A stretch of DNA of 26,127 nucleotides from a virus. The stretch lies in the IMG/VR virus record IMGVR_UViG_3300010318_000039, positions 1 through 26,127 of that record. The stretch is one strand, 5' to 3'. The notes beneath the pieces are model-generated. The model was not told the DNA's origin, searched no databases, and worked only from the letters and a program-made list of their open reading frames with translations. This document shows, in pieces, positions 13,733-24,332 of the stretch; within the stretch, counting starts at the first letter, position 1, and the number at the start of each line of letters is the position of its first letter. A program made the translations under genes and the position numbers.

Positions 13733-14541
13733 AATAGATCTATTTGCTCATTAAATCCAAAATCATCATCTGATGTTACTAAAGCATCATCAAGATTATT
13801 AATAATGTTATCATTATTTTTATCATCCAATGCTTTAGGAGAATATGTAAATTTAGCATTTCTTTTATGTTGATTATAAGTACCAACACTCTCAAAAACT
13901 ATTGCTTTACGTATAATATCAATTTGATTAAATGGTCCATAGATATAAGATTTAGCAATAAAATTTAATTTCCATTCAATTAAACGTCTTTGCATAAAAC
14001 TATCATCCCAATCATCTGTATGATCAACACCAGTTAATGTAATACATACATCACGGTTTTCATTCATTTCAGGAATAAAATTAATTGTTATGTTGAAATT
14101 TGGTTGAAAGTATGGTAAAATCTGTTCAAGAATTTGCAATCCATCGTCTTGATTTTTTGTTAATATTCCTAATTCAAAATCAATATTATATGGTACAGGA
14201 ACATATTGTACTTTTACTTCAGAACCATTGTTGTCAATAACTGCTTTATATTTTTGAATCGGACTAGTTTTTCGTGAACTATCATAACCAATATTTGTCA
14301 TTTCGAAGTACATTCTCGGAAACTTAATATCTTGATATGGAGGTCCTGGAGTAGGGTCAGGGTTCTGTTCAATACGTCTTATGAATTTATCTTTTGGTCC
14401 ATACGCCAAAGGAATTTTTTGGACATTAATAATATCTCCCGTTTGAGGATTTCTTCTTTGAACTTCTATGTTATTAAAAAGTGTCCCAAACCCTATAACG
14501 GTTTTTCTAATTGCTTCGTTATAAAAATGCGAGCCTAACGT
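13729..14541 (-). CDS. 15: Tail terminator / proximal sheath stabilizer gp15, apparent ACG start
   Basis: With the start I propose the protein has 270 aa, matching T4 gp15 (272 aa). The first ATG/GTG/TTG start in this frame is TTG at 14409, but that drops about 44 conserved residues. Upstream, the frame is open from 14559 and encodes LGSHFYNEAIRKTVIGFG and TLFNNIEVQRRNPQTGD, matching the T4 gp15 N-terminus (FGYFYNSSFRR then GDLFSNIQIKRQ). The codon where a Met is expected is ACG at 14539-14541. Later motifs LQILEQILPYFQPNFNITI and RRLIEWKLNF are strongly gp15-like. The protein caps the top of the tail and joins it to the neck. A late-promoter motif 37 nt upstream of the ACG also favours the long form. 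An ACG start or an ATG-to-ACG sequence error are both possible. Confidence 0.88.
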   Translation of the reverse strand, partial: TLGSHFYNEAIRKTVIGFGTLFNNIEVQRRNPQTGDIINVQKIPLAYGPKDKFIRRIEQNPDPTPGPPYQDIKFPRMYFEMTNIGYDSSRKTSPIQKYKAVIDNNGSEVKVQYVPVPYNIDFELGILTKNQDDGLQILEQILPYFQPNFNITINFIPEMNENRDVCITLTGVDHTDDWDDSFMQRRLIEWKLNFIAKSYIYGPFNQIDIIRKAIVFESVGTYNQHKRNAKFTYSPKALDDKNNDNIINNLDDALVTSDDDFGFNEQIDLL

Positions 14542-14578
14542 TGTTTTGTACCCGTTTATTCAAAAATAACTATTAATT

Positions 14579-14586
14579 TATTTATT
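14579..14586 (-). promoter_or_regulatory. Late-promoter-like AATAAATA before gene 15
   Basis: The minus strand reads AATAAATA, overlapping the end of gene 14. It is 37 nt upstream of the ACG proposed as the gene 15 start but 169 nt upstream of the TTG alternative, so its spacing agrees with the ACG. Confidence 0.55.
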
Positions 14587-15460
14587 AGAAGCTACCCGTA
14601 AAATTACCATATTCACCAAAAGGATTTATTTCATCAAATACAAGAATATCATCTGCTTCGGTTTCTATATCTTTATTTTCTTCATATTGAGTATTAGGAT
14701 CATCAATTGTACTGAAGGAGACAATTTCCCATTCAGCTTGAGATATTTCACCGGTTACTAATTCTTCTTCTATAAATGTTCCTGTTCTATCAATAACGGT
14801 AAGAGTTTTTGTAGTTGAATTCCAATTAGTTACAGTCGCACTTACATTAGAAACAGATCCTTCAACTTTTTCACCTACAACAAAATTAAGACCTGTTGGA
14901 TTGTTAGCAAAAATTATATTAATAGCAGGACTTTGAATTAAATCAATATTATCAATTTGTGATATACCTGTTTCAATTGTTTCGTTACCAATTTCATATA
15001 ATTCTGCTGTAATAGTATAAAATTGTAATTTTCCAAATTGATGAAATACTGCTTCTACTTTCACATATTTGATTTCATACAAATCTTTAGTTAAAGGAAA
15101 AAATAATAAATCTCCTTCTAATGGTCTCGGTCCTAAATCATAAGTTTCTGATTCTTGTAACCATCTACGAGAAGAAACATTAAATACAATTTCATCTGTA
15201 ACTTTTAATCCAAATTTATTAATAAATTCACTATTGTTTCCAAATCCTTCTACATTTTGTAGAATCATTTCAATTTGTAATTGTGTTTCAAATTTAGAGT
15301 AAATTACATCATCTAATGTGTTTTCTTTAATGATAGTTCTTGGTAAATAATAAATATCTGTCCCAAAAAGTTTTATTTGTTCATCTGTAAGATCTTGATA
15401 TAAATTTTGTTCCCCTTCATATCCTGCATAATATGAAGGAAAATACTGACTTGTAGGCAT
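14585..15460 (-). CDS. 14: Neck protein gp14
   Basis: A 291-aa protein beginning MPTSQYFPSYYAGYEGEQNL, the marine gp14 N-terminus (T4 gp14 is 256 aa). The core has the diagnostic GTDIYYLPRTI, DDVIYSKFETQLQIEMIL and FGLKVTDEIVFNVSSRRW segments, followed by RPLEGDLLFFPLTKDLYEIKYV (quoted in parts). An inserted region after about residue 180 with a GLNFVVGEKVEG-type beta segment and an acidic linker makes it longer than the T4 protein. With gp13 it builds the neck that seals the filled head and receives the tail. It lies 4 nt after gene 13. Confidence 0.92.
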   Translation of the reverse strand: MPTSQYFPSYYAGYEGEQNLYQDLTDEQIKLFGTDIYYLPRTIIKENTLDDVIYSKFETQLQIEMILQNVEGFGNNSEFINKFGLKVTDEIVFNVSSRRWLQESETYDLGPRPLEGDLLFFPLTKDLYEIKYVKVEAVFHQFGKLQFYTITAELYEIGNETIETGISQIDNIDLIQSPAINIIFANNPTGLNFVVGEKVEGSVSNVSATVTNWNSTTKTLTVIDRTGTFIEEELVTGEISQAEWEIVSFSTIDDPNTQYEENKDIETEADDILVFDEINPFGEYGNFTGSF

Positions 15461-15464
15461 TGTT

Positions 15465-16295
15465 TTATCCTATAAGATCCATAGGTGGCAAAGAATAATC
15501 TGTAAGCATTTTTGCTTCTAATTCTTTTACTTCGTTATTTCCATCTTCCCATATTTCTCTTCCGTTTAAGGTAATTCCTCCAGGAAGCTGAACATTATTA
15601 TACTTAATAAGGTTTTGCCCCCACTGTCTTTTGATCAAAGCAGTAGCGTATCGTTTTAAAAAACTATCATTATAAACTTGAGACCATTCTTGAGGATCTA
15701 AAGCCCTATAACAATCAATAACAAGATACCTTCCTTCTTTGACTCTTGTTCGATCAATATCAATATACAATCTATCTTGTCTTTTATTAAATCTATATTC
15801 TACAAGACCACCTGTATTTACTACCATGTCAAGTGTTTCAAAATATTGTTTAATCATATAATAATATGACATGTCAAAATTTCCAAATGTATAGCCGGAT
15901 GAAAATGAAAAAATATCAAGTAAGAAATATTGATTACTTAATCCCCACATTTCATTGGCAGAAAGATTTGAAGTTACTCCAAATACTTTTTGAATGCCAA
16001 TTACATGATCTGGTACTTCGATAAAGTTTTTTCTATTTTCCCATCCGGCACCATCTGGATCATCTGTACTAGAAAGTTCGTTTGTTTCTTGAAATCTTTC
16101 TACATCTTCTGCAGTAAATTGATGTTTAAGATACATTCTTTCAATACCATCAAAATGATATTCTTGATAATATTGAATTGCATCATCAATTAAATCTTCA
16201 ATCTGATTACTATCTACATTAATTTGTAATACAGGATAACCTAATTTTCTCAAACAATACTCTTTAAATTGTATTCTAGTATTAGGCTTAGCCAT
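15465..16295 (-). CDS. 13: Neck protein gp13 (head completion)
   Basis: A 276-aa protein, somewhat shorter than T4 gp13 (309 aa). It opens MAKPNTRIQFKEYCLRKLG then PVLQINVDSNQIEDLIDDAI and YYQEYHFDG, a very characteristic gp13 start. Other hallmarks are EVPDHVIGIQKVF, FDMSYYYMIKQYFETLD, the YRFNKRQDRLYIDID strand pair and the C-terminal TALIKRQWGQNL and LPGGITLNGREIW. It binds under the portal after packaging. Two late-promoter-like motifs precede it. Confidence 0.95.
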   Translation of the reverse strand: MAKPNTRIQFKEYCLRKLGYPVLQINVDSNQIEDLIDDAIQYYQEYHFDGIERMYLKHQFTAEDVERFQETNELSSTDDPDGAGWENRKNFIEVPDHVIGIQKVFGVTSNLSANEMWGLSNQYFLLDIFSFSSGYTFGNFDMSYYYMIKQYFETLDMVVNTGGLVEYRFNKRQDRLYIDIDRTRVKEGRYLVIDCYRALDPQEWSQVYNDSFLKRYATALIKRQWGQNLIKYNNVQLPGGITLNGREIWEDGNNEVKELEAKMLTDYSLPPMDLIG

Positions 16296-16311
16296 TGATT
16301 GATTTTTTAAT

Positions 16312-16319
16312 TATTTATT
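16312..16319 (-). promoter_or_regulatory. Late-promoter-like AATAAATA near gene 13
   Basis: The minus strand reads AATAAATA only 16 nt upstream of the gene 13 ATG. This is close for a promoter with a leader and ribosome-binding site, so the motif at 16370-16377 is the better candidate. Confidence 0.35.
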
Positions 16320-16369
16320 GATGGTTTTGAATTTAAAATCCTGTAGAATTTATTATATTTGTTCAATCA

Positions 16370-16377
16370 TATTTATA
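16370..16377 (-). promoter_or_regulatory. Late promoter with exact TATAAATA
   Basis: The minus strand reads TATAAATA, an exact match to the T4 late-promoter consensus and the only exact one I found in the gaps. It lies in the 93-nt gap between the 58-aa gene and gene 13, 74 nt upstream of the gene 13 ATG. It could drive the 13-14-15-16 run. Confidence 0.7.
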
Positions 16378-16388
16378 AAAACATGATA

Positions 16389-16565
16389 TTATGATTCTGA
16401 CTCCGTAGGTTCTTCAGTATTTAAAAGATCTAATGTTTCTAGACCACCAATCAACTTTAATTTATATTCTTTAAGCTTTGTAAGATTTTCTTCTAGTTCA
16501 GTAATTTGCTTTTCAGTTTTAGATAATTGTTCCTGAAAATTTGTTCTAACACTTTCGATTTCCAT
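16389..16565 (-). CDS. Small coiled-coil protein upstream of gene 13
   Basis: A 58-aa ORF starting MEIESVRTNFQEQLSKTEKQ and ending TEEPTESES. Residues 8-40 form one heptad-rich helix (EQLSKTEKQITELEENL, then KLKEYKLKLIGGLETLDLL), and the tail is acidic. Similar tiny coiled-coil proteins with a K-L-xGGLETL segment occur before gene 13 in marine T4-like phages, without known function as far as I recall. It starts with ATG and has a late-promoter motif 27 nt upstream, but I see no clear Shine-Dalgarno sequence. The coding signal (periodic leucines, no stop) supports a real gene. Confidence 0.75.
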   Translation of the reverse strand: MEIESVRTNFQEQLSKTEKQITELEENLTKLKEYKLKLIGGLETLDLLNTEEPTESES

Positions 16566-16592
16566 ATTATAATCAAGAGATATAATTTCTAT

Positions 16593-16600
16593 TATTTATT
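16593..16600 (-). promoter_or_regulatory. Late-promoter-like AATAAATA before the 58-aa gene
   Basis: The minus strand reads AATAAATA, 27 nt upstream of the small coiled-coil gene and just past the end of the 702-aa glycosyltransferase gene. It would separate head/neck transcription from the glycan cassette. Confidence 0.6.
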
Positions 16601-16604
16601 TAAG

Positions 16605-18713
16605 TTATAATTTTTTGTAAACGAAACAGCCATTAATATTATCTACTTTTTCAAATTCTAAAAGTTTCATTAATTCTACCGCTTTTAAAGTATCTTCTGA
16701 CCATTCTATATCATCCACAAAACAATAACCTCCTTTAACAATATTTGTTGCATAGTTAATTATGTCTTTTAGTAATTGAATTGTGTGTTGACCATCAATA
16801 TGCAAAACATTAATATTTTTGATATTTCTAATTTCATCACTTGTAGATTTAAATAAAGTTACATAATCATTTACACCTAATTTGTCAATACCATTTAAAC
16901 ATATTTGATACATTTTTTCTAAGTTGACATTACTCCAAAATTGCTTATGACTTGGATGATCATAACCAATTGTCGCTTCTTGATTTGACCAGGGATCTAT
17001 TCCATATACTTTACCCTTGTTTAATTGTTTTAATGCAAGAGCAAAAGGAAACAAACTTTTTCCTCCATATACTCCTATTTCCACACAAACAGGATCATGA
17101 TAATTTGAACATGTTTCTAAAACACAATTAATAATTTTATTATATTTTGTTTCAGAACACCATCCCCATTCCCCATATTGTTCATCAAAATTTTTATATA
17201 AATTTATTAATTCATTTTTGATATCATTTTTATTGCTTATTTTCGGAAGAAGAAAATTTTTAACTCTAGGAAGATCAAAAATTATTTTTGGTAACAATTG
17301 TACTGGATAATTTCTTTTTTCATATTGATTGTACATTTCATCAGATACAATTTCTTTCACAGATTCTGTTGAAAGAGTGTTAACTGACGACATATTTGCA
17401 TAATGAATAAATGAATCAGCTTTTTTCTTTCTTCTTTCTTCTCCTCCCATCCACGTAAAATGCCAACCACAATCTTGAACTATTGCATTTTTTTCTGTTA
17501 TCCATCTAGGTTGATATTCATTCAACACATTAGATCTCATTTTAGTTGGAGTTCCACCATTTTTTAGTTGTTTTGCTGTACATAACAATAATGAATTTTG
17601 CCATGGAACAGGACTATTGTTTTCAAACAGTCTTTTATCTGCTCTACCTTCAAATAAAATTAATGGAACTTTAATTATATTTTGATGATTATTTCTACAA
17701 ACTGAAGAAAAATATTCTACGTATTTTGGATCAATAATTTCATCACAATCACTTAATATAAAAACAGTATCATCGGAATAATTATCAATAATTGATAAAA
17801 CAGCATCACGTTGAATTCTTTCTCTTGTCCATGCTTTAGATTCAGCAGCACTTTTTGATTCTGATGAATTATATTCATCAATTTCATTAGGAATCAAAGA
17901 ATTATCATCAATTTTTATTTCTAATACTTTTATTTTTTCTTTTGGAAGATTTAATTCTTCAATCAAATTTTTACATATAAACTCTTTAGAAATACCACTA
18001 TGTGTATAATTCAATTCCGAGATAATAAACTGATCTACATAATCATTTAAAAGATTAATTCGAAGCTCTAATAATTCTTTTTCGTTAAAAAATGGAAAAC
18101 AATCAATAACTTTTTTAGTGGGTAAAACAGCAGAATAATTTTGTAAATGATATACAAACGAATTAACTTTAATAAAATTGAAATTTAATTTAGGAAGAAT
18201 ATTTTCAAAAAGATCTATATCATTGGGGTGGGGATATTTAATTTCATTTGGATATTCCACAAAAGTTTTTTTATGGAATGCTACTGGCATATACCATCCC
18301 TTACAATTATGGATAATTTCTGGAACTTTTGTTATATTTTGTGATACAAATGTATTAAATTTTTCATAGTCGAATGTTTCTGGAGTAGTACCACAATTAT
18401 ATTCAATATTTCTATCATTTACAGGAATTCTTCCAGATTCTACTAAGTATCCGGTAACTACAGTATTTTGTTTACAGTGTTCAAAAAATGGAACGTCCCA
18501 ACCAGGGGATACAAACATATCATCATTTAAAAGTATTACTACATCATATTTTGCTTTTAATACACCTTGATTATAAGCAGAATAAACATCAGTTTCATCA
18601 ATAATTTCTATAAGTTCATAATTATTAATAGTATTTTGTTTTAAATATTTTTTACAAATATCGATGCAAGTACTATTTGAAAGATAAGGCAATACTATAG
18701 AAATTTTATTCAT
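16605..18713 (-). CDS. GT2-like, GT17-like and SAM methyltransferase fusion protein
   Basis: A 702-aa protein with three modules. Residues 1-195 look like a GT-A family 2 glycosyltransferase: ISIVLPYLSN start, SAYNQGVLKAKYDVVILLNDD with the DD metal-binding pair at 64-65, and a GWYMPVAFHKKTF acceptor-side segment. Residues 200-490 match glycosyltransferase family 17: CFPFFNEKELLELR, SELNYTHSG, the SDCDEII motif at 321-327 and CGWHFTWMGG at 415-424. Residues 540-690 are a class I methyltransferase with VEIGVYGGKS at 544-553, VYGIDPW at 569-575 and INVLHIDGQH at 634-643. No signal peptide or membrane segment is visible, so it should act in the cytoplasm. It follows the 1257-aa protein after two bases and shares GT17 sequence with it. 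The acceptor and donor are unknown; modification of a virion glycan or a host surface sugar is inferred. Confidence 0.8.
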   Translation of the reverse strand: MNKISIVLPYLSNSTCIDICKKYLKQNTINNYELIEIIDETDVYSAYNQGVLKAKYDVVILLNDDMFVSPGWDVPFFEHCKQNTVVTGYLVESGRIPVNDRNIEYNCGTTPETFDYEKFNTFVSQNITKVPEIIHNCKGWYMPVAFHKKTFVEYPNEIKYPHPNDIDLFENILPKLNFNFIKVNSFVYHLQNYSAVLPTKKVIDCFPFFNEKELLELRINLLNDYVDQFIISELNYTHSGISKEFICKNLIEELNLPKEKIKVLEIKIDDNSLIPNEIDEYNSSESKSAAESKAWTRERIQRDAVLSIIDNYSDDTVFILSDCDEIIDPKYVEYFSSVCRNNHQNIIKVPLILFEGRADKRLFENNSPVPWQNSLLLCTAKQLKNGGTPTKMRSNVLNEYQPRWITEKNAIVQDCGWHFTWMGGEERRKKKADSFIHYANMSSVNTLSTESVKEIVSDEMYNQYEKRNYPVQLLPKIIFDLPRVKNFLLPKISNKNDIKNELINLYKNFDEQYGEWGWCSETKYNKIINCVLETCSNYHDPVCVEIGVYGGKSLFPFALALKQLNKGKVYGIDPWSNQEATIGYDHPSHKQFWSNVNLEKMYQICLNGIDKLGVNDYVTLFKSTSDEIRNIKNINVLHIDGQHTIQLLKDIINYATNIVKGGYCFVDDIEWSEDTLKAVELMKLLEFEKVDNINGCFVYKKL

Positions 18714-18715
18714 AG

Positions 18716-21700
18716 TTAAAATCCTAAATGTTTTTTTCGATTAAATTCAATATCATATTGTTTATATTCATTATGTAAATTATAATTATCATTAGCAAAT
18801 TGATGCCAATTTTCCCAATTTTGTCCCCAAACACTATTTAAATATTCTTTGTTTAACATGTGAGAATCAAAAATTTTTCTTGTCATTAAATCCCCTTCTA
18901 TTTTTGAAGTTTGAGACCCACTTTGGGAATAGTCTTTAGTGTTTCCGTGATAATAGTGCGAATGAACAAAACTTCCTTTAATATTATTCTTTTTAATTTT
19001 TAATAAATAGTCGCAGTCTTCGCAATAAGCCGGATATAAATTTTCGTCGAATAGTCCGCATTTTTTAACAGCACTATCTTTTAATAAGAAACATTCAAAA
19101 GAACCTAAGTCATAAGAGGCAAATTGTTCATTGATAGATGGCGGCCAAACTATTCCAACTTCCTCATTTTTACTTTTTGCAACCATCTCTTCCAAAAATC
19201 CCGGAGTGAAAGATACGTCATTATTGCAAATAATCCAATATGGTTCCATTACATACGATTTAATAATTAAATTCCACGCTGCTGGTACTCCTATATTAGA
19301 CGGTAAATGGCAAACTTTTACGTTTTCTATGTAGTCATGATTAATATTACATAATTGATCCAACTCTGTTGTTATTTGGTCTCTTCCATTATTATTAATA
19401 ATAAAAAAATCTTTAACAGGATAGTCAACACTATTTATCAGCCTTTTTAACCAGTGTACTCCGTTTACAATAGGGACTCCAATAACAGGAATAGGAACGT
19501 AATAAGTATTTTCTAAAGTTTCATGCCCGTGATTAATTATTTTTTTAAATTCCGGTACTTCTATTATATTTAGCCATTCTTTGCGATTTTTATCAAAATT
19601 TTCGTAGGTAAGTTCTTCCGTGATATTAATTGCATTTTGTTTTCCTTTTTTAATTATTCCGCAACCTTGGTCCGTGTTTACAACATACATCTCTAAATCA
19701 TCTCTTGTTGATCGTAGTTCAACAAATGCCTTCCAACAATCCCCGTTCCATACCCCATGTCTAAATGGAACGAGTTGATGTTCTTTACATATCGGATTCA
19801 TGTCATGGCAAACAATGTATCCGTTATCATTTAAAACTTCTAGAGAATTAAGAATATCTCTTAAAACCTGGTCAGCATAATGCAATCCATCTATAAAAAT
19901 AATATCGAACTTTTCATTATTATTTTTGAAAAACTCATCCGATGTTACGTGAAAAGTTGCGGGACTATTTGTATCTGGATCGACTCCCACTTTATATTTG
20001 CAATTTATTTTTGCTAAATTTTGTCCATCAAAAACGCCAATTTCAAGGTACTTTTTAGCATTTATTTTTTCAATTAATATATTAATAAGGTCGTTTCTTT
20101 CTACAGCATTAGATTGTATTTTTTGATCAGATAAATACATATCTACAATTTTACTAAAATTTTTCTCTAGTAAGAAAAACTTTCTTAAATGCTCGTGCTC
20201 TAAAATCTGAGTCGGTAAATCTTCCACAGGATATTCTTTTAATACATATCCCTTATAGCCCCAAGGATTAATACCTCCAATAGATGGTTTCCATTGATTA
20301 ATAAATTCTTCTAACTCTTTAGAATTCATATCTTTGTGTATAGAATCATTTATTCTATCCGCATAATGAGATGTGGATTTTTGTTTTAATTTTAATCTGT
20401 TATTATCTCCCATCCAACTAAAATGCCATCCACATTCTTCGATTCTTTTACCATCTTGAGTGATATAAACTATTGGATAAGGATTGTTAATATTAAATCT
20501 CATTTGAAATGGAGTGGCATTTTTAAAATGAGACGTTGTGCACATAAAAAATACATTATCCACGCAAACTGGAGTATCAGTCTCCACATTATAAGCTCTT
20601 AAATTTGCCTTACCCTCTAATTCTATAAGAGGAATTTTTATCAAGCAATTTTGATTAGCTAAAGCCATATCAGAAAAATATGGGATATTTTCTGGTTTTA
20701 TGATTTCATCACAATCAGATACAAAAAATACAGTATTATCATCAAATTGATCTATGATTGTTAACAGGCTATTTAATAATAATCTTTCTCTGGTTCTTGC
20801 ATTTACAGAATTTTTATAACTATCATTTGATTTACCAGATAATGATCTAAAAGCAATATCATCCACAGTATTTTTTATATCTTCATCATTACTTGGTAAC
20901 TCCACCTCAAGAACAATAAATTTATCTTCTGGAAACCCTAATTCTTTAATATATTTTTTTGCTAATAATTCTTCTCGTGGAATGCCACTTTGCGTTTTAG
21001 TTCCTTCAAGAATTACAAATGTATCTACATAGTCTTTTAACATATTAAATCGTAGTTCTAATAATTCTTTTTCGTTAAAGAATCTAAAACAATCAATAAT
21101 TTTTTTACTCATAATAGGTAGTTCTGTGGGATAAAATTTCATAATACTATTTTTTAAATCTTCTGGAAAATTATTAAAATCATAATTTTTGAGCGAAAAC
21201 TCCTCTTTGTCTCTTTCAAAAAGATCTTTTTTATTTTTAATACTATCCGAAATATTATCAATATATTCTTTTTTATTAAACTTTATATGAGAAAGAGCCC
21301 CTAATTTTGATTTAATTTTATCTACACCTCCAAAGTAAGAAAAATGCCATCCTGCTGATGGTATCACAGATAAGCCACATCTATTTTCTCTAATAGTTTG
21401 ACAACCATTTGTAATTGTAATACCCACAGTAGTAATATATGAACCCCACCAAATGAAATCTTTTGTGGTGTTAAAATTATAGAAAAATAAACGATTTTGC
21501 AATACAAAATAGTAATTATTATTTTCTTGAGTATCTATAATAATTTTTTTAATAACTTTTTTATCGGGGATTTCGTCACAATCTCCAAATATAAACATAT
21601 CATTTTCAGAAAAATTATATTTTTTTAAAAATGTAGACACATAATTTCTTTGAGCTTCTTCAATTTCCCAAAAATCTCCATCCTCGGGAATATTATATTT

Positions 21701-22489
21701 GGTTATATCCGGTTCATATTTTAAACGGATAATTTTATTTCTAATTTCTTCAGGAATTTCTTCCCAAATTTCATCAAGATGATACGGTTTAGGTTTTCCA
21801 GAATGAGTATAATTAGATTCGCAAATAATGAAATTATCTATGACATCATTCAAGTAATCCAAGCGAAGTTTTAATACATCAAACTCATTAAAAAACAAAA
21901 ACGCATCAACAACCTTTCTATTCATTATAGTTGATCCAAGTCCAAATTTTTCCATATTTTCATCAATAACTTTTTTTTGATTTTCATCCATAAGGTGATA
22001 ATAATTGCTACGAAGCAATTGACATAATTCTCTAGTCTCTTTTCCTTTACCCCATGGCCAAGACGCTACCATTTTCTGAAACATTAATAAATGTTTTCCA
22101 GAATATTCGGGAATATCTATATCTTCAATGTTATTACGCTCATAACATTGTAATCCTAAATTAGCATAGATATAACAATTTTGCCAATCTCCTCTTGTTT
22201 GATAAATCGAGGAGAGAAAATAATATGCTTCTGGCCTATCTGGAGAAGATATTAAAGCATTTTCTATTAATACTTTTTCTGTTCCTTCTCTTGAGCCTTG
22301 TTTTTGATAACAAAAAGCTGATCTTAATAATGACTTATATATTAAAATTTTATCTTCTGATCTTTCGGAAGCCCTTAAATAATAACTATGAGCAGGAGCT
22401 GTATGATTTTGACTTTCATACCACGCAGCTAAATTATAATTTTTTTCTCCATTTTCTGTATCTAACGAATAATCAGTCAGTTCATTCAT
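18716..22489 (-). CDS. Giant TPR, GT17, GT17, methyltransferase, GT2 glycosylation protein
   Basis: A 1257-aa protein with at least five modules. Residues 15-185 hold TPR-like helical repeats (AAWYESQNHTAPAHSYYLRA, EAYYFLSSIYQTRGDW). Residues 190-455 are a full GT17 domain: AFLFFNEFDVLKLRLDYL, CESNYTHSGKPK, GDCDEIP at 302-308 and AGWHFSYFGG at 379-388, close to the eukaryotic MGAT3-type layout. Residues 462-770 are a second GT17 copy with SDCDEII at 591-597 and CGWHFSWMG at 686-694. Residues 805-950 are a methyltransferase (YLEIGVFDGQN, FDIIFIDGLHYADQVLRDIL, VCHDMNP). Residues 1000-1200 are GT2-like (PVIGVPIVNGVHWLKRLI, FIINNNG, ICNNDVSFTPGF, YCEDCDYLLKI). It overlaps the GH130-like gene by 8 nt. 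All catalytic signature residues appear intact. Substrate is unknown. Confidence 0.82.
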   Translation of the reverse strand: MNELTDYSLDTENGEKNYNLAAWYESQNHTAPAHSYYLRASERSEDKILIYKSLLRSAFCYQKQGSREGTEKVLIENALISSPDRPEAYYFLSSIYQTRGDWQNCYIYANLGLQCYERNNIEDIDIPEYSGKHLLMFQKMVASWPWGKGKETRELCQLLRSNYYHLMDENQKKVIDENMEKFGLGSTIMNRKVVDAFLFFNEFDVLKLRLDYLNDVIDNFIICESNYTHSGKPKPYHLDEIWEEIPEEIRNKIIRLKYEPDITKYNIPEDGDFWEIEEAQRNYVSTFLKKYNFSENDMFIFGDCDEIPDKKVIKKIIIDTQENNNYYFVLQNRLFFYNFNTTKDFIWWGSYITTVGITITNGCQTIRENRCGLSVIPSAGWHFSYFGGVDKIKSKLGALSHIKFNKKEYIDNISDSIKNKKDLFERDKEEFSLKNYDFNNFPEDLKNSIMKFYPTELPIMSKKIIDCFRFFNEKELLELRFNMLKDYVDTFVILEGTKTQSGIPREELLAKKYIKELGFPEDKFIVLEVELPSNDEDIKNTVDDIAFRSLSGKSNDSYKNSVNARTRERLLLNSLLTIIDQFDDNTVFFVSDCDEIIKPENIPYFSDMALANQNCLIKIPLIELEGKANLRAYNVETDTPVCVDNVFFMCTTSHFKNATPFQMRFNINNPYPIVYITQDGKRIEECGWHFSWMGDNNRLKLKQKSTSHYADRINDSIHKDMNSKELEEFINQWKPSIGGINPWGYKGYVLKEYPVEDLPTQILEHEHLRKFFLLEKNFSKIVDMYLSDQKIQSNAVERNDLINILIEKINAKKYLEIGVFDGQNLAKINCKYKVGVDPDTNSPATFHVTSDEFFKNNNEKFDIIFIDGLHYADQVLRDILNSLEVLNDNGYIVCHDMNPICKEHQLVPFRHGVWNGDCWKAFVELRSTRDDLEMYVVNTDQGCGIIKKGKQNAINITEELTYENFDKNRKEWLNIIEVPEFKKIINHGHETLENTYYVPIPVIGVPIVNGVHWLKRLINSVDYPVKDFFIINNNGRDQITTELDQLCNINHDYIENVKVCHLPSNIGVPAAWNLIIKSYVMEPYWIICNNDVSFTPGFLEEMVAKSKNEEVGIVWPPSINEQFASYDLGSFECFLLKDSAVKKCGLFDENLYPAYCEDCDYLLKIKKNNIKGSFVHSHYYHGNTKDYSQSGSQTSKIEGDLMTRKIFDSHMLNKEYLNSVWGQNWENWHQFANDNYNLHNEYKQYDIEFNRKKHLGF

Positions 22490-23459
22490 TTATAAATTCC
22501 CCAATAAAAGTTTTTGGTGTTTTTAAAATATAAGCAGCATTATCTTGAAAACCAAAAGTAATTAAATAACTATCTTGATATTCTACAAGACCACAGCAGA
22601 ATTCAACCTTTGCATTCAAAAAAGAAAATAATTTAGAAAATCTTTGATTTTGAAAATTACTATCCCACAATACAAATCTATGTCTATATGTTCCATCTTT
22701 TCTTCCTTGCTCAGATTGATATAATTCAGTTTCATGAATTAATGTCATATAGCCATCTTTATATTTGATAATCTGAGAACCACCTCGCATATCATTAAAT
22801 CCAGATATGTATTCTGTTGTAACAAATACTTCGGTATCATTACCATTCGGATCAAATTTCATTAATGCAGTTGGATTGGTCCACTTCAAAAGATGAAATG
22901 GTTTATCTTCAATAGGTGTACAATTTTTCATGCAATATTCATTATCTGGAGGAGGTCCAGGAATGCGATATCTAGAAACTTCTTTAATATTATTTCCATC
23001 AAGTTCGAGTTCAGAAAGTTCCATTCTTCCTGTTCCGATAGTATCTAAATCTCTTCTGACGCCAATACCATATAATTTATTTTCCCATTGTATTAATCGA
23101 ACATCCTCAAGACCAACAAAATGCCATTGCGGTATATAAGTATCAAATAATGATGTGTCTATATTGTTATGACTAATTAAATCTAGATTATCATCTAATT
23201 GTAAAATATGATTAACTGTTCTTAAATTCATATCTTGTTCAGGATGAACATATACCAATGGTCCCCATATATGTTCATGAATATTTAATTCAGCATGATA
23301 TAAAGTGTAATTTACATTACGAACATTTACTAATATTTTGTTATTTACAACACAAACAGATGGATTTGTGAGTGCAGGTCCTTTTAAATTTTCAGAAGGA
23401 ATAAGTAAAGGTTTAATAATTCCGCCATTTTCTAATGCCAATTTCACAAAATTATTCAT
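22482..23459 (-). CDS. GH130-like five-bladed beta-propeller protein
   Basis: A 325-aa protein with the motif order of glycoside hydrolase family 130 and its relatives. NPSVCVVNNKILVNVRNVNY is near residue 32, then GLEDVRLI at 116-123 with KLYGIGVRRD (the G-x-E-D-x-R signature), MKNCTPIEDKP at 177-187 (GH130 usually has an E-K-N-W-x-P motif), GGSQIIKY, YRHRFVLWD, and EFCCGLVEYQDSYLITFGFQDNAAYIL (given in parts) at 286-312. GH130 enzymes are mostly mannoside phosphorylases or mannosidases. Related propellers are fused to glycosyltransferases and may only bind sugar. The Trp of the K-N-W motif is Cys here, so catalysis is uncertain. It is the first gene of the glycan cassette and overlaps the next gene by 8 nt. 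Confidence 0.7.
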   Translation of the reverse strand: MNNFVKLALENGGIIKPLLIPSENLKGPALTNPSVCVVNNKILVNVRNVNYTLYHAELNIHEHIWGPLVYVHPEQDMNLRTVNHILQLDDNLDLISHNNIDTSLFDTYIPQWHFVGLEDVRLIQWENKLYGIGVRRDLDTIGTGRMELSELELDGNNIKEVSRYRIPGPPPDNEYCMKNCTPIEDKPFHLLKWTNPTALMKFDPNGNDTEVFVTTEYISGFNDMRGGSQIIKYKDGYMTLIHETELYQSEQGRKDGTYRHRFVLWDSNFQNQRFSKLFSFLNAKVEFCCGLVEYQDSYLITFGFQDNAAYILKTPKTFIGEFINE

Positions 23460-23639
23460 AAATTTTCATCTCTCAACGTCTCAAAATTATATAATTATTA
23501 TATGGTATTTTTTATTTCGTAAATTTTTTACAGCTGTCAAGTAACAAATAATTTGCTTCTTTCATACTATTTATGTCGAGTAATTAATACTAAAAAATTA
23601 AAATTTTATATGCTATATAACTAAATTTACTATAAATTA
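23460..23639. other. AT-rich gap between lectin-fold gene and glycan cassette
   Basis: The 180-base gap is the longest without a gene. It is strongly AT-rich and holds one late-promoter-like motif (23568-23575) and a TTGACA hexamer on the minus strand (23535-23540) that has no TATAAT at normal spacing. No ORF or clear terminator is visible. Confidence 0.6.
23568..23575 (-). promoter_or_regulatory. Late-promoter-like CATAAATA before the glycan cassette
   Basis: The minus strand reads CATAAATA, 108 nt upstream of the GH130-like gene. The leader is longer than for the structural genes, so the call is weaker. It is the only late-type motif before the three cassette genes, which could be transcribed from it as one unit. 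Confidence 0.4.
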
Positions 23640-24332
23640 TCAAATGCCAAAGCGAGTTCTAGAAGCATCAAAGATTTGCGTTACTTCGCTTGCATTAAGA
23701 GCAACCTCATAAACCAATGCCTGTCCAATATGGCAAGTCGTCATTTCACCGTAGCCAGGATCGCCACCAAGGTAGAAGGGAGATCCGGCAGAATTTGTAT
23801 ACCAATCATTAAAACCAGTTTTTACTGATACCGTGTTTTTATAGTAAGTAAAGTTGAAACCGTTTTTAACAAAGCAGACGTGCATCCATTCATTCTGAGG
23901 CAACACATAATCAAATTTTATAGCGGGATACTCAAATGCCTTTGGGGTTAGCTTGATAAATGGTGCTGGGTATCTGTTGCCCATGATGACATCATCGGTG
24001 CTTTCAAATATTCTAAAAAATATGCTCCAAGTAAATGAGCCCGTTGGGGTGATCTCAGGCTGTGTGTAGTTCGAAAATGCCGCGTAATCGCTGCCACCAC
24101 CCCCGAAGGAAATATAGCCACCAAAGTCAGGAGAATATGTGGAGTTACCGCTTAGATTTCCATTATAGCCATTACCGCTAAGATCAAACCATGTTGTACC
24201 ATTATAAGGGCTTGGATAAGAATTAGGATCAGATGCATCTAAGTAGATTTTTAATCCAGATAAAGGCACTCCAGATCCAGGTCCAGATTGAACTGTCGTA
24301 AATATATACGGATTAATATAAATTAAACTCAT
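23640..24332 (-). CDS. LamG/concanavalin A-like lectin-fold protein
   Basis: A 230-aa protein with the typical laminin-G-like arrangement: LSGLKIYLDASDPNSYP near residue 24, WFDLSGNGYNGNLSGN at 47-62, then GSFTWSIFFRI, WMHVCFVKNGFNFTYYKN at 149-166, PFYLGGDPGYGEM, IGQALVYEVALNASEV and a final F-x-x-x-R-x-R-F-G-I. These jelly-roll domains often bind carbohydrate in phage fibres and adhesins. No signal peptide is visible. The ATG overlaps the upstream 175-aa gene as ATGA. By hand count 79 of 180 bases (23641-23820) are G or C, clearly more than the flanking cassette, which suggests recent acquisition or different expression. A receptor-binding or fibre-tip role is inferred. Confidence 0.82.
   Translation of the reverse strand: MSLIYINPYIFTTVQSGPGSGVPLSGLKIYLDASDPNSYPSPYNGTTWFDLSGNGYNGNLSGNSTYSPDFGGYISFGGGGSDYAAFSNYTQPEITPTGSFTWSIFFRIFESTDDVIMGNRYPAPFIKLTPKAFEYPAIKFDYVLPQNEWMHVCFVKNGFNFTYYKNTVSVKTGFNDWYTNSAGSPFYLGGDPGYGEMTTCHIGQALVYEVALNASEVTQIFDASRTRFGI

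Follow-up and report, generated by a model that had tools for sequence, protein, structure and literature searches.

What do two adjacent phage proteins, each a chain of glycosyltransferase (GT) and methyltransferase (MT) modules, make, and on which surface do they act? The window analyzed here, a 26,127-nucleotide stretch of viral DNA (IMG/VR record IMGVR_UViG_3300010318_000039), carries them in a minus-strand cassette. It is a fragment of a T4-like cyanophage whose host type is Synechococcus-like cyanobacteria; the terminase, 85.6% identical in sequence comparison to that of Synechococcus phage S-CAM1, bears out the phage origin stated in an earlier note on this DNA. The cassette is most likely a late-expressed glycan assembly line decorating virion fibres, with host-surface modification as the main rival.

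Both open reading frames of the earlier note, 702 aa at 16605-18713 and 1257 aa at 18716-22489, are real (Table 1). Both are encoded on the minus strand, which puts the 1257-aa gene ahead of the 702-aa gene in transcription. Pfam also confirmed the proposed domain orders, TPR-GT17-GT17-methyltransferase-GT2 and GT2-GT17-methyltransferase, with the TPR match below threshold. The stretch delimited in that note, 16605-22489, contains the two claimed genes, but leaves out a third gene of the unit, an upstream mannosyltransferase-like gene at 22482-23459 that had been overlooked. This beta-propeller gene overlaps the 1257-aa gene by 8 nt, and the 702-aa gene starts 2 nt past the stop of the 1257-aa gene. 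Window positions 13896-20483, which span the end of the 1257-aa gene, the whole 702-aa gene and the neck genes, recur at 99.74% identity in an independent contig, L004 (6588 bp); as this contig reproduces the arrangement, the latter is not an assembly join. No transmembrane segments were found in the three proteins, and no Rfam families or tRNAs within the window. Solved structures searched by sequence and by profile yielded nothing useful on the GT17 alignment, the two large proteins or the propeller.

Table 1. Features of the cassette, in window coordinates.
Feature	Position	Strand	Basis
GH130/GT108-like beta-propeller gene, 325 aa	22482..23459	-	AlphaFold model, family-wide Pfam scan
1257-aa protein TPR-GT17a-GT17b-MT-GT2	18716..22489	-	ORF, Pfam
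TPR head unit, residues 1-185	21935..22489	-	Recurrence in related loci; Pfam TPR below cut-off
GT17a, residues 187-458	21116..21931	-	PF04724 102 bits; DCDE 303, GWHFS 380
GT17b, residues 459-770	20180..21115	-	PF04724 39 bits; DCDE 592, GWHFS 687
MT1, class I methyltransferase (Methyltransf_24), residues 775-965	19595..20167	-	PF13578 9.1e-10
GT2_1, residues 985-1257	18719..19537	-	PF00535 2.3e-11
702-aa protein GT2-GT17c-MT	16605..18713	-	ORF, Pfam
GT2_2, residues 1-196	18126..18713	-	PF00535 4.5e-6
GT17c, residues 198-500	17214..18122	-	PF04724 48 bits; DCDE 322, GWHFT 416
MT2, class I methyltransferase (Methyltransf_24), residues 505-702	16608..17201	-	PF13578 6.1e-12
T4-type late-promoter-like site CATAAATA	23568..23575	-	115 nt 5' of propeller gene; ATAAATA count

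A six-frame scan of the window with the GT17 model PF04724 (curated cut-off 26 bits), a check suggested in the earlier note, found exactly three sites, all above the cut-off, as had been claimed. Pfam E-values were 7.5e-39 for the 1257-aa protein, in two stretches, and 3.4e-12 for the 702-aa protein; GT17b and GT17c cover only the first half of the model. In local alignments scored against shuffles, GT17b and GT17c were 44% identical (z = 81), and GT17a aligned with GT17b at z = 30 and with GT17c at z = 35. The metal-binding D, D and E, whose loss had been named as grounds for rejecting the assignment, are invariant in the three copies and in all 33 aligned GT17 modules. The signature DCDE is likewise present in three of three, but GWHFS, also said to be kept throughout, is found in GT17a and GT17b and reads GWHFT in GT17c.

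Structure prediction, also suggested, was carried out for GT17c. The AlphaFold model (pLDDT 91.3, pTM 0.91) matched GT-A enzymes in Foldseek with E about 1e-7 and modest TM-scores of 0.34-0.45, and viral GT17 models with TM 0.64-0.68; its best BFVD match was "Glycosyl transferase, family 17" (E 2.6e-17). GT17c is thus predicted to have a GT-A fold, the type proposed for GnT-III (PMC7014118, PMC7185993). Human MGAT3/GnT-III, a GT17 enzyme, has DxDE and the GT-A type fold in common with the window modules, which nevertheless differ from it: they have no transmembrane or stem region, and their closest relatives come from viruses and bacteria rather than animals.

The earlier note found the GT17 trio striking for a family best known from eukaryotes. 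The count stands, but the rationale is weakened: of 292 cyanobacterial genomes sampled, 21 encode GT17; a single strict motif picked it up in 145 bacterial contigs, five isolated cyanophages have it, and one viral locus (L014) has four copies in tandem. Judging from these sequences, GT17 is widespread in bacteria and phages, and bacterial GT17 modules also appear fused to other GTs or TPR units, as in Azospirillum (GT4-GT17-TPR-GT9, L122), in cyanobacteria (GT2-GT17-WbsX, L217) and in a TPR-GT17-TPR protein (L216). Unlike the cassette, these three fusions are chromosomal, with one GT17 each and no methyltransferase, and no propeller gene was seen among the scanned proteins of bacterial GT17 fusions.

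The two large proteins had also been read as one module set in permuted order. Formally the order is a rotation, GT17-MT-GT2 against GT2-GT17-MT, as would result if one gene had recently duplicated in tandem and then undergone circular permutation, and the identity between GT17b and GT17c would fit such an event. All four GT2 and MT modules exceed their cut-offs, with 44.3 bits for GT2_1 and 27.1 bits for GT2_2 (PF00535, 23.3 bits), and 39.8 bits for MT1 and 46.8 bits for MT2 (PF13578, 26.3 bits). However, GT2_1 and GT2_2 gave no alignment above chance, and MT1 and MT2 are only distantly related (36% over 130 residues, z 9). In the GT17 tree, moreover, the three copies fall in separate clades, each at its own position and each with other viruses: GT17a with L006, L101 and L108, GT17b with the GT17 modules of the first genes in L005 and L009 (support 100/100), and GT17c with second-gene modules. 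Each copy thus belongs to an older lineage of its own. The module order therefore reflects separate assembly. L009 and L045 carry GT17c-MT2 without the front GT2, which was found outside the window only in the near-identical contig L004; GT2_1-like modules, 45-54% identical, are joined straight to TPR in L045, L104 and L108. We consider duplication with permutation highly improbable, the GT17 tree and the missing GT2-GT2 alignment together ruling out a recent event.

The overlooked gene encodes a putative beta-mannosyltransferase or mannoside phosphorylase of GH130/GT108-like type. The window propeller alone gave nothing reliable from PHROGs, Pfam or NCBIfam, and the assignment is based on the family-wide Pfam scan and the predicted structure. 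PF04041 matched 24 of 37 family members with E <= 1 and a best value of 4.8e-6, but did not match the window member. The AlphaFold model (pLDDT 84.8) had as best PDB matches only GH130 beta-1,2-mannoside phosphorylases (E 2.5e-10, TM about 0.6), and Leishmania GT108 was also among the structural matches. Residues N32, E118-D119 and D306 are invariant across the 37 propellers; judged from pattern and order rather than from superposition, they fit the mannose-site residues N28, E91-D92 and D281 of Teth514_1788 (PMC4264767). The propeller resembles GH130/GT108 enzymes in predicted fold, and its Asn / Glu-Asp / Asp pattern may correspond to their mannose site; for the window member, sequence similarity is marginal. 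A host origin was considered for the propeller, which has a nearly identical copy in the cyanobacterial assembly L214, and rejected: the neighbours of that copy are collagen-like, LamG and ribonucleotide reductase genes, so L214 looks like a phage contig.

The propeller is one half of a recurrent pair. Propeller and TPR unit occur together in a majority of some 50 distinct viral loci, and the TPR unit heads 80 ORFs (47 distinct proteins) of the loci compared; Pfam TPR matches, below the cut-off in the window protein, are above it in L110. The 8-nt overlap is repeated in most loci where the two genes are adjacent, and propeller and TPR identities covary from locus to locus (Spearman 0.85; 1225 non-independent pairs from 50 loci). 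Behind the TPR unit the modules vary, including GT2, GT17, GT7/GT25, FkbM or type-24 methyltransferase, radical SAM and 2OG-oxygenase-like modules, with a fusion series from TPR-GT2 through TPR-GT17-GT2 and TPR-GT17-MT-GT2 to TPR-GT17-GT17-MT-GT2. Sister cassettes finish with an oxygenase-like module, which the window cassette does not have. By sequence comparison, the TPR unit is a constant head with exchangeable cargo, a feature that the earlier note had missed, and the constant front with varying rear modules points to an assembly line with interchangeable parts that would build a sugar coat on a surface. A GT17 fused to the propeller (L046) and a cyanobacterial GT2-TPR-propeller protein with a PF12141 beta-mannosyltransferase match (L215, 1.7e-7) point to a functional link between propeller, TPR and GTs. 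We found no published description of the propeller-TPR cassette in the open-access literature.

In O-GlcNAc transferase, the TPR part recruits the acceptor. It is possible, and we suggest it only tentatively, that the propeller-TPR pair gives T4-like phages a constant platform for plug-in glycosyl-, methyl- and hydroxyl-transferring modules that diversify virion-surface glycans combinatorially; the TPR unit would then bring in a phage fibre protein to serve as the acceptor. Gly-X-X repeats occur in the loci of only 18 of the 47 TPR proteins, many of these loci being short.

The cassette sits directly between tail/collagen/LamG genes and the neck gene gp13 on the same strand, and the genes immediately upstream code for tail proteins of collagen-like or lectin-like type. 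In L046 and L053 it has the same position before gp13, and several more loci adjoin collagen-like or tail-fibre genes. The minus strand of the window has 15 ATAAATA sites and the plus strand four, and nine of the 15 lie within 130 nt 5' of a start codon, a zone making up 11% of the window; CTAAATA, a motif sometimes considered for cyanophages, was not enriched. Late-promoter-like control and tail-gene neighbours suggest action during virion assembly, but the location is not decisive, because the host-recognition cluster also contains genes that do not act on virions (PMC7029224).

The explanation that we prefer, at about an even chance, is that the three genes are one co-transcribed, translationally coupled unit of the host-recognition cluster and make a short, mannose-containing, O-methylated oligosaccharide, most likely attached to a virion surface protein. 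A beta-linked mannose would come from the propeller enzyme and further sugars, at one linkage per module, from the GT17 and GT2 modules, and the two methyltransferase modules would cap sugars; the TPR unit may serve as scaffold or acceptor-binding part, and the tail proteins just upstream are candidate acceptors. Counting against this reading, no sugar-nucleotide genes, oligosaccharyltransferase or other attachment enzyme were found in the window. The indecisive location, the missing oxygenase-like module, the Gly-X-X frequency and the half-model GT17b and GT17c matches were counted on the same side.

The assembly line for a methylated oligosaccharide, an idea of the earlier note, gains by analogy from a proven precedent, chlorovirus PBCV-1 A064R, a GT-GT-methyltransferase chain for which enzyme work demonstrated synthesis of the methylated terminus of the capsid glycan (PMC9614988). 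A064R and A111/114R are soluble viral chains of two or three transferase modules (PMC9614988, PMC7826918), as here. In the cassette, too, Pfam finds at least two GT modules together with a methyltransferase on a single viral chain, and it may work much as A064R does. The chlorovirus proteins differ in the names of their GT families, have no TPR unit or propeller partner, and belong to a virus of a eukaryotic alga. The function of A064R is proven, whereas that of the cassette is predicted from sequence and structure; established are domain identities, retention of catalytic residues, propeller-TPR pairing, cargo exchange, protein solubility and location.

It is possible, though in our view unlikely, that the cassette instead remodels the surface polysaccharide (O-antigen or capsule) of the infected cyanobacterium, thereby keeping rival phages from adsorbing or progeny from adsorbing again. 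The published interpretation of pelagimyophage glycosyltransferases in the same cluster is of this kind (PMC7029224), surface polysaccharide loci typically hold GT2 and FkbM methyltransferases, cyanobacteria have GT2-GT17-WbsX (L217) and GT17-WbsX (L218) fusions, and the single GT17 of phage S-B05 lies in a cluster of sugar-nucleotide and LPS-type genes. The cassette, however, lacks a membrane anchor, a sugar-nucleotide gene and any lipid-linked step, and late-promoter-like control beside tail genes fits poorly with this account.

Modification of phage DNA or another small molecule, rather than a surface, is improbable. PHROGs does label the MT modules "DNA methyltransferase" (phrog_27561, 2.2e-12; phrog_2675), and modified bases can be substrates of phage glycosyltransferases, but both modules are Methyltransf_24 and, as read from their sequences, contain neither the [DNS]PPY motif of DNA amino-methyltransferases nor a target-recognition region. 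Both have the SAM-binding EIGxxxG motif (YLEIGVFDGQ in MT1), and MT2 has a weak Pfam match to the sugar O-methyltransferase TylF (0.015). Five serial sugar transferases and a mannoside propeller would be ill-suited to base modification. That the fusions are enzymatically decaying leftovers of a plastic region, with little function, would agree with the hypervariability of the region and with the absence of one or more modules from many relatives; it is nevertheless very unlikely, since frames of 1257 and 702 codons remain open, active-site residues are intact in 33 of 33 aligned GT17 modules and in all 37 propellers, and two independent assemblies carry the arrangement.

Phage virion glycosylation is rarely studied, and marine-phage glycosyltransferases are usually assumed to target host lipopolysaccharide. 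If virions are the target, the cassette would parallel, in phages, the machinery that makes chlorovirus capsid glycans, and it could account for surface-identity variation among close cyanophages; the natural series of module fusions is useful for studying how multi-step sugar enzymes assemble. The conserved mannosyltransferase-like/TPR pair, with its varying catalytic modules, is a defined marker for deciding between virion and host targets in isolated phages. Synechococcus phages DSL-LC02 and S-SCSM2R both have a propeller gene followed by a TPR-headed protein with the identical 8-nt overlap, and differ from the window in their cargo, an FkbM methyltransferase with radical SAM/SPASM in DSL-LC02 and an oxygenase-like module in S-SCSM2R, with no GT17 in either.

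The window contains the complete IMG/VR record (26,127 bp). On its minus strand, the gene order begins with collagen-like tail genes, continues with the neck genes (gp13, gp14, gp15) and those for terminase, sheath, tube, portal, protease, scaffold and capsid, and ends with a helicase. Along its entire length, the terminase shares 85.6% identity with that of Synechococcus phage S-CAM1 (family Kyanoviridae). S-CAM1 lacks the three-gene cassette; the corresponding position there encodes a tail fibre and a long structural protein of the virion. The propeller gene overlaps the 1257-aa gene by 8 nt, and a 2-nt gap separates the latter from the 702-aa gene. A late-promoter-like CATAAATA lies 115 nt ahead of the propeller gene; sites of this type cluster before late genes in the window. 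At two other loci (L059, L075), relatives of the window's lectin protein adjoin the cassette.

Cassette genes and neighbouring features in the window
Feature	Position	Strand	Remarks
Small ORF, 57 codons	16390-16563	-	Between 702-aa transferase gene and gp13; own ATAAATA site 36 nt upstream
702-aa transferase gene	16605-18713	-	Between tail genes and gp13
1257-aa transferase gene	18716-22489	-	Between tail genes and gp13
Propeller gene, 325 aa	22482-23459	-	Just ahead of the two transferase genes
LamG/ConA-like lectin protein	23640-24332	-	PF13385, 8.9e-12; between collagen-like tail gene and cassette

Pfam assigned two GT17 domains, Methyltransf_24 and GT2 to the 1257-aa protein (TPR-GT17a-GT17b-MT1-GT2_1), and GT2, GT17 and Methyltransf_24 to the 702-aa protein (GT2_2-GT17c-MT2). 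The three GT17 modules proposed in an earlier note were recovered by a six-frame PF04724 search of the window, which gave three matches, all above cut-off. Because GT17b and GT17c matched only the first half of the PF04724 model, the structure of GT17c was predicted from an alignment of 33 relatives (pLDDT 91.3, pTM 0.91). The model matched GT-A enzymes in the PDB at modest TM-scores, among them heparosan synthase 2, GlcAT-P, chondroitin polymerase and GnT-II. Among viral models, the best named match was "Glycosyl transferase, family 17" (TM 0.68 and 0.72, E 2.6e-17); next came long giant-virus proteins of several domains. The prediction is consistent with the GT17 identity claimed. A 2020 review did not report a solved GnT-III structure (PMC7014118), and our sequence search for one found none. 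Residues D7, R21, E101, D125-x-D127-E128, G219-W220-H221, G226, K234 and P278 were invariant in 33 GT17 modules, so that the acidic signature is indeed kept in all three window copies.

The note had also read the two proteins as the same module set in permuted order, which did not hold. GT17b and GT17c are 44% identical and GT17a is about one third identical to each, but in a maximum-likelihood tree of 37 modules all three fell in separate clades: GT17a with L006, L101 and L108, GT17b with the first-gene modules of L005 and L009 (support 100/100), and GT17c with the second-gene modules of L009, L005, L045, L047 and L053, plus L046. GT2_1 and GT2_2 gave no alignment above chance, and MT1 and MT2 are distant from each other. 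Together, these results contradict permuted duplication of one unit and indicate that the two module orders came about as separate modules were joined. Among the loci examined, the only other occurrence of GT2_2 was in L004, which is the same virus assembled a second time (99.74% identity over 6588 bp).

The propeller has 59 relatives in viral contigs in one scan. The best matches of its model (pLDDT 84.8) were GH130 beta-1,2-mannoside phosphorylases; Leishmania GT108 mannosyltransferases matched as well. PF04041 was matched by 24 of 37 relatives (best 4.8e-6), but not by the window propeller itself. The invariant residues Asn32, Glu118-Asp119 and Asp306 follow the same order as Asn28, Glu91-Asp92 and Asp281, which belong to the mannose site of Teth514_1788 (PMC4264767), a match by pattern rather than by superposition. 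Both GH130 and GT108 have the five-bladed propeller, and phosphorylases as well as dual transferases are found among them (PMC8950772), so the fold does not fix the direction of the reaction, which could run either way; from the neighbouring genes, we infer a putatively biosynthetic role. Mannose is probably one of the sugars handled by the cassette, and the only one that can be named. L214, a contig from the bin of a cyanobacterial assembly but probably phage, has the propeller next to genes for collagen-like and LamG proteins and a B12-dependent ribonucleotide reductase.

Two fusions indicate a functional link between the propeller, TPR and GT modules. The cyanobacterial chromosomal protein L215 (1119-3308) combines GT2, TPR and a propeller-type domain in a single chain, with a match to PF12141 (beta-mannosyltransferases); the phage cassette may have its cellular source, or a cousin, in this protein. 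In L046 (1405-3330), a GT17 module is fused to a GH130-like propeller in a 641-aa protein, whose gene precedes gp13 and a short TPR gene that stands alone.

Modules were mapped across all fetched viral loci by iterative HMM searches, and 30 TPR proteins were checked with Pfam. The commonest form, a TPR unit followed by a variable part and an oxygenase-like module, accounted for 19 of 47 distinct TPR-bearing proteins. Others were TPR-GT2 (L045), TPR-GT17-GT2 (L009), TPR-GT17-MT-GT2 (L005), TPR-GT17-GT17 truncated by the contig end (L006) and TPR-FkbM-radical SAM/SPASM (DSL-LC02), as well as large proteins with FkbM, GT7C, GT25 and GT17 ahead of the TPR unit (L104, L106, L108). One locus (L014, 2866-7313) has four successive GT17 modules; one follows a TPR unit, and each of the other three is a gene of its own. 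Propeller and TPR identities covary between loci (Spearman 0.85, a descriptive value, as locus pairs are not independent), but the cargo does not follow them. The TPR units of L005 and L009 are only 36% and 33% identical to that of the window while their GT17b modules are 64% and 66% identical; conversely, L047 has a 61% identical TPR unit with an unrelated FkbM cargo. This conflict between identities shows that modules have been exchanged.

GT17, GT2 and the methyltransferases are known families, and multi-domain viral GT/methyltransferases are already known from chloroviruses. Bacteria also have GT17 fusions, namely an Azospirillum GT4-GT17-TPR-GT9 protein and a cyanobacterial GT2-GT17-WbsX protein; of 292 cyanobacterial genomes sampled, 21 contained GT17. 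In Azospirillum and Niveispirillum, long proteins (650-1450 aa; L118-L143) fuse GT17 to GT4, TPR and GT9 modules. Within the open-access literature, we found no account of a propeller-TPR pair whose cargo is exchangeable, and the novelty lies in this conserved platform with swapped modules more than in three GT17 copies as such.

No transmembrane segments were found in the cassette proteins; their site of action would therefore be the cytoplasm, with soluble acceptors, or at most the inner membrane face. The cassette occupies the equivalent of the host-recognition cluster known from pelagimyophages and cyanomyophages; glycosyltransferases in that cluster were interpreted as altering the host O-chain (PMC7029224). 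That the present cassette changes the host surface is plausible but less likely: the tail-gene neighbourhood, the late-type control, the solubility of the proteins and the precedent of the chlorovirus PBCV-1 GT-GT-methyltransferase protein A064R (PMC9614988) favour decoration of the virion instead, which we give about an even chance.

The oxygenase-like C-terminal module of sister cassettes, lacking in the window's cassette, matches Pfam DUF6445 near or barely above cut-off, and modules of this type occur at about 30 loci. It is 80% conserved in 15 sister cassettes, with H97-x-D99, H173 and R187 kept, a spacing characteristic of 2-oxoglutarate/Fe(II) oxygenases. Mimivirus has a known enzyme that hydroxylates and glycosylates collagen; by analogy, sister cassettes alone might hydroxylate and then glycosylate collagen-like fibres. 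L057 10124-10717 (DSL-LC02) is recorded as an FkbM methyltransferase, but is of the DUF6445 type with the HxD...H...R pattern, and the annotation looks wrong.
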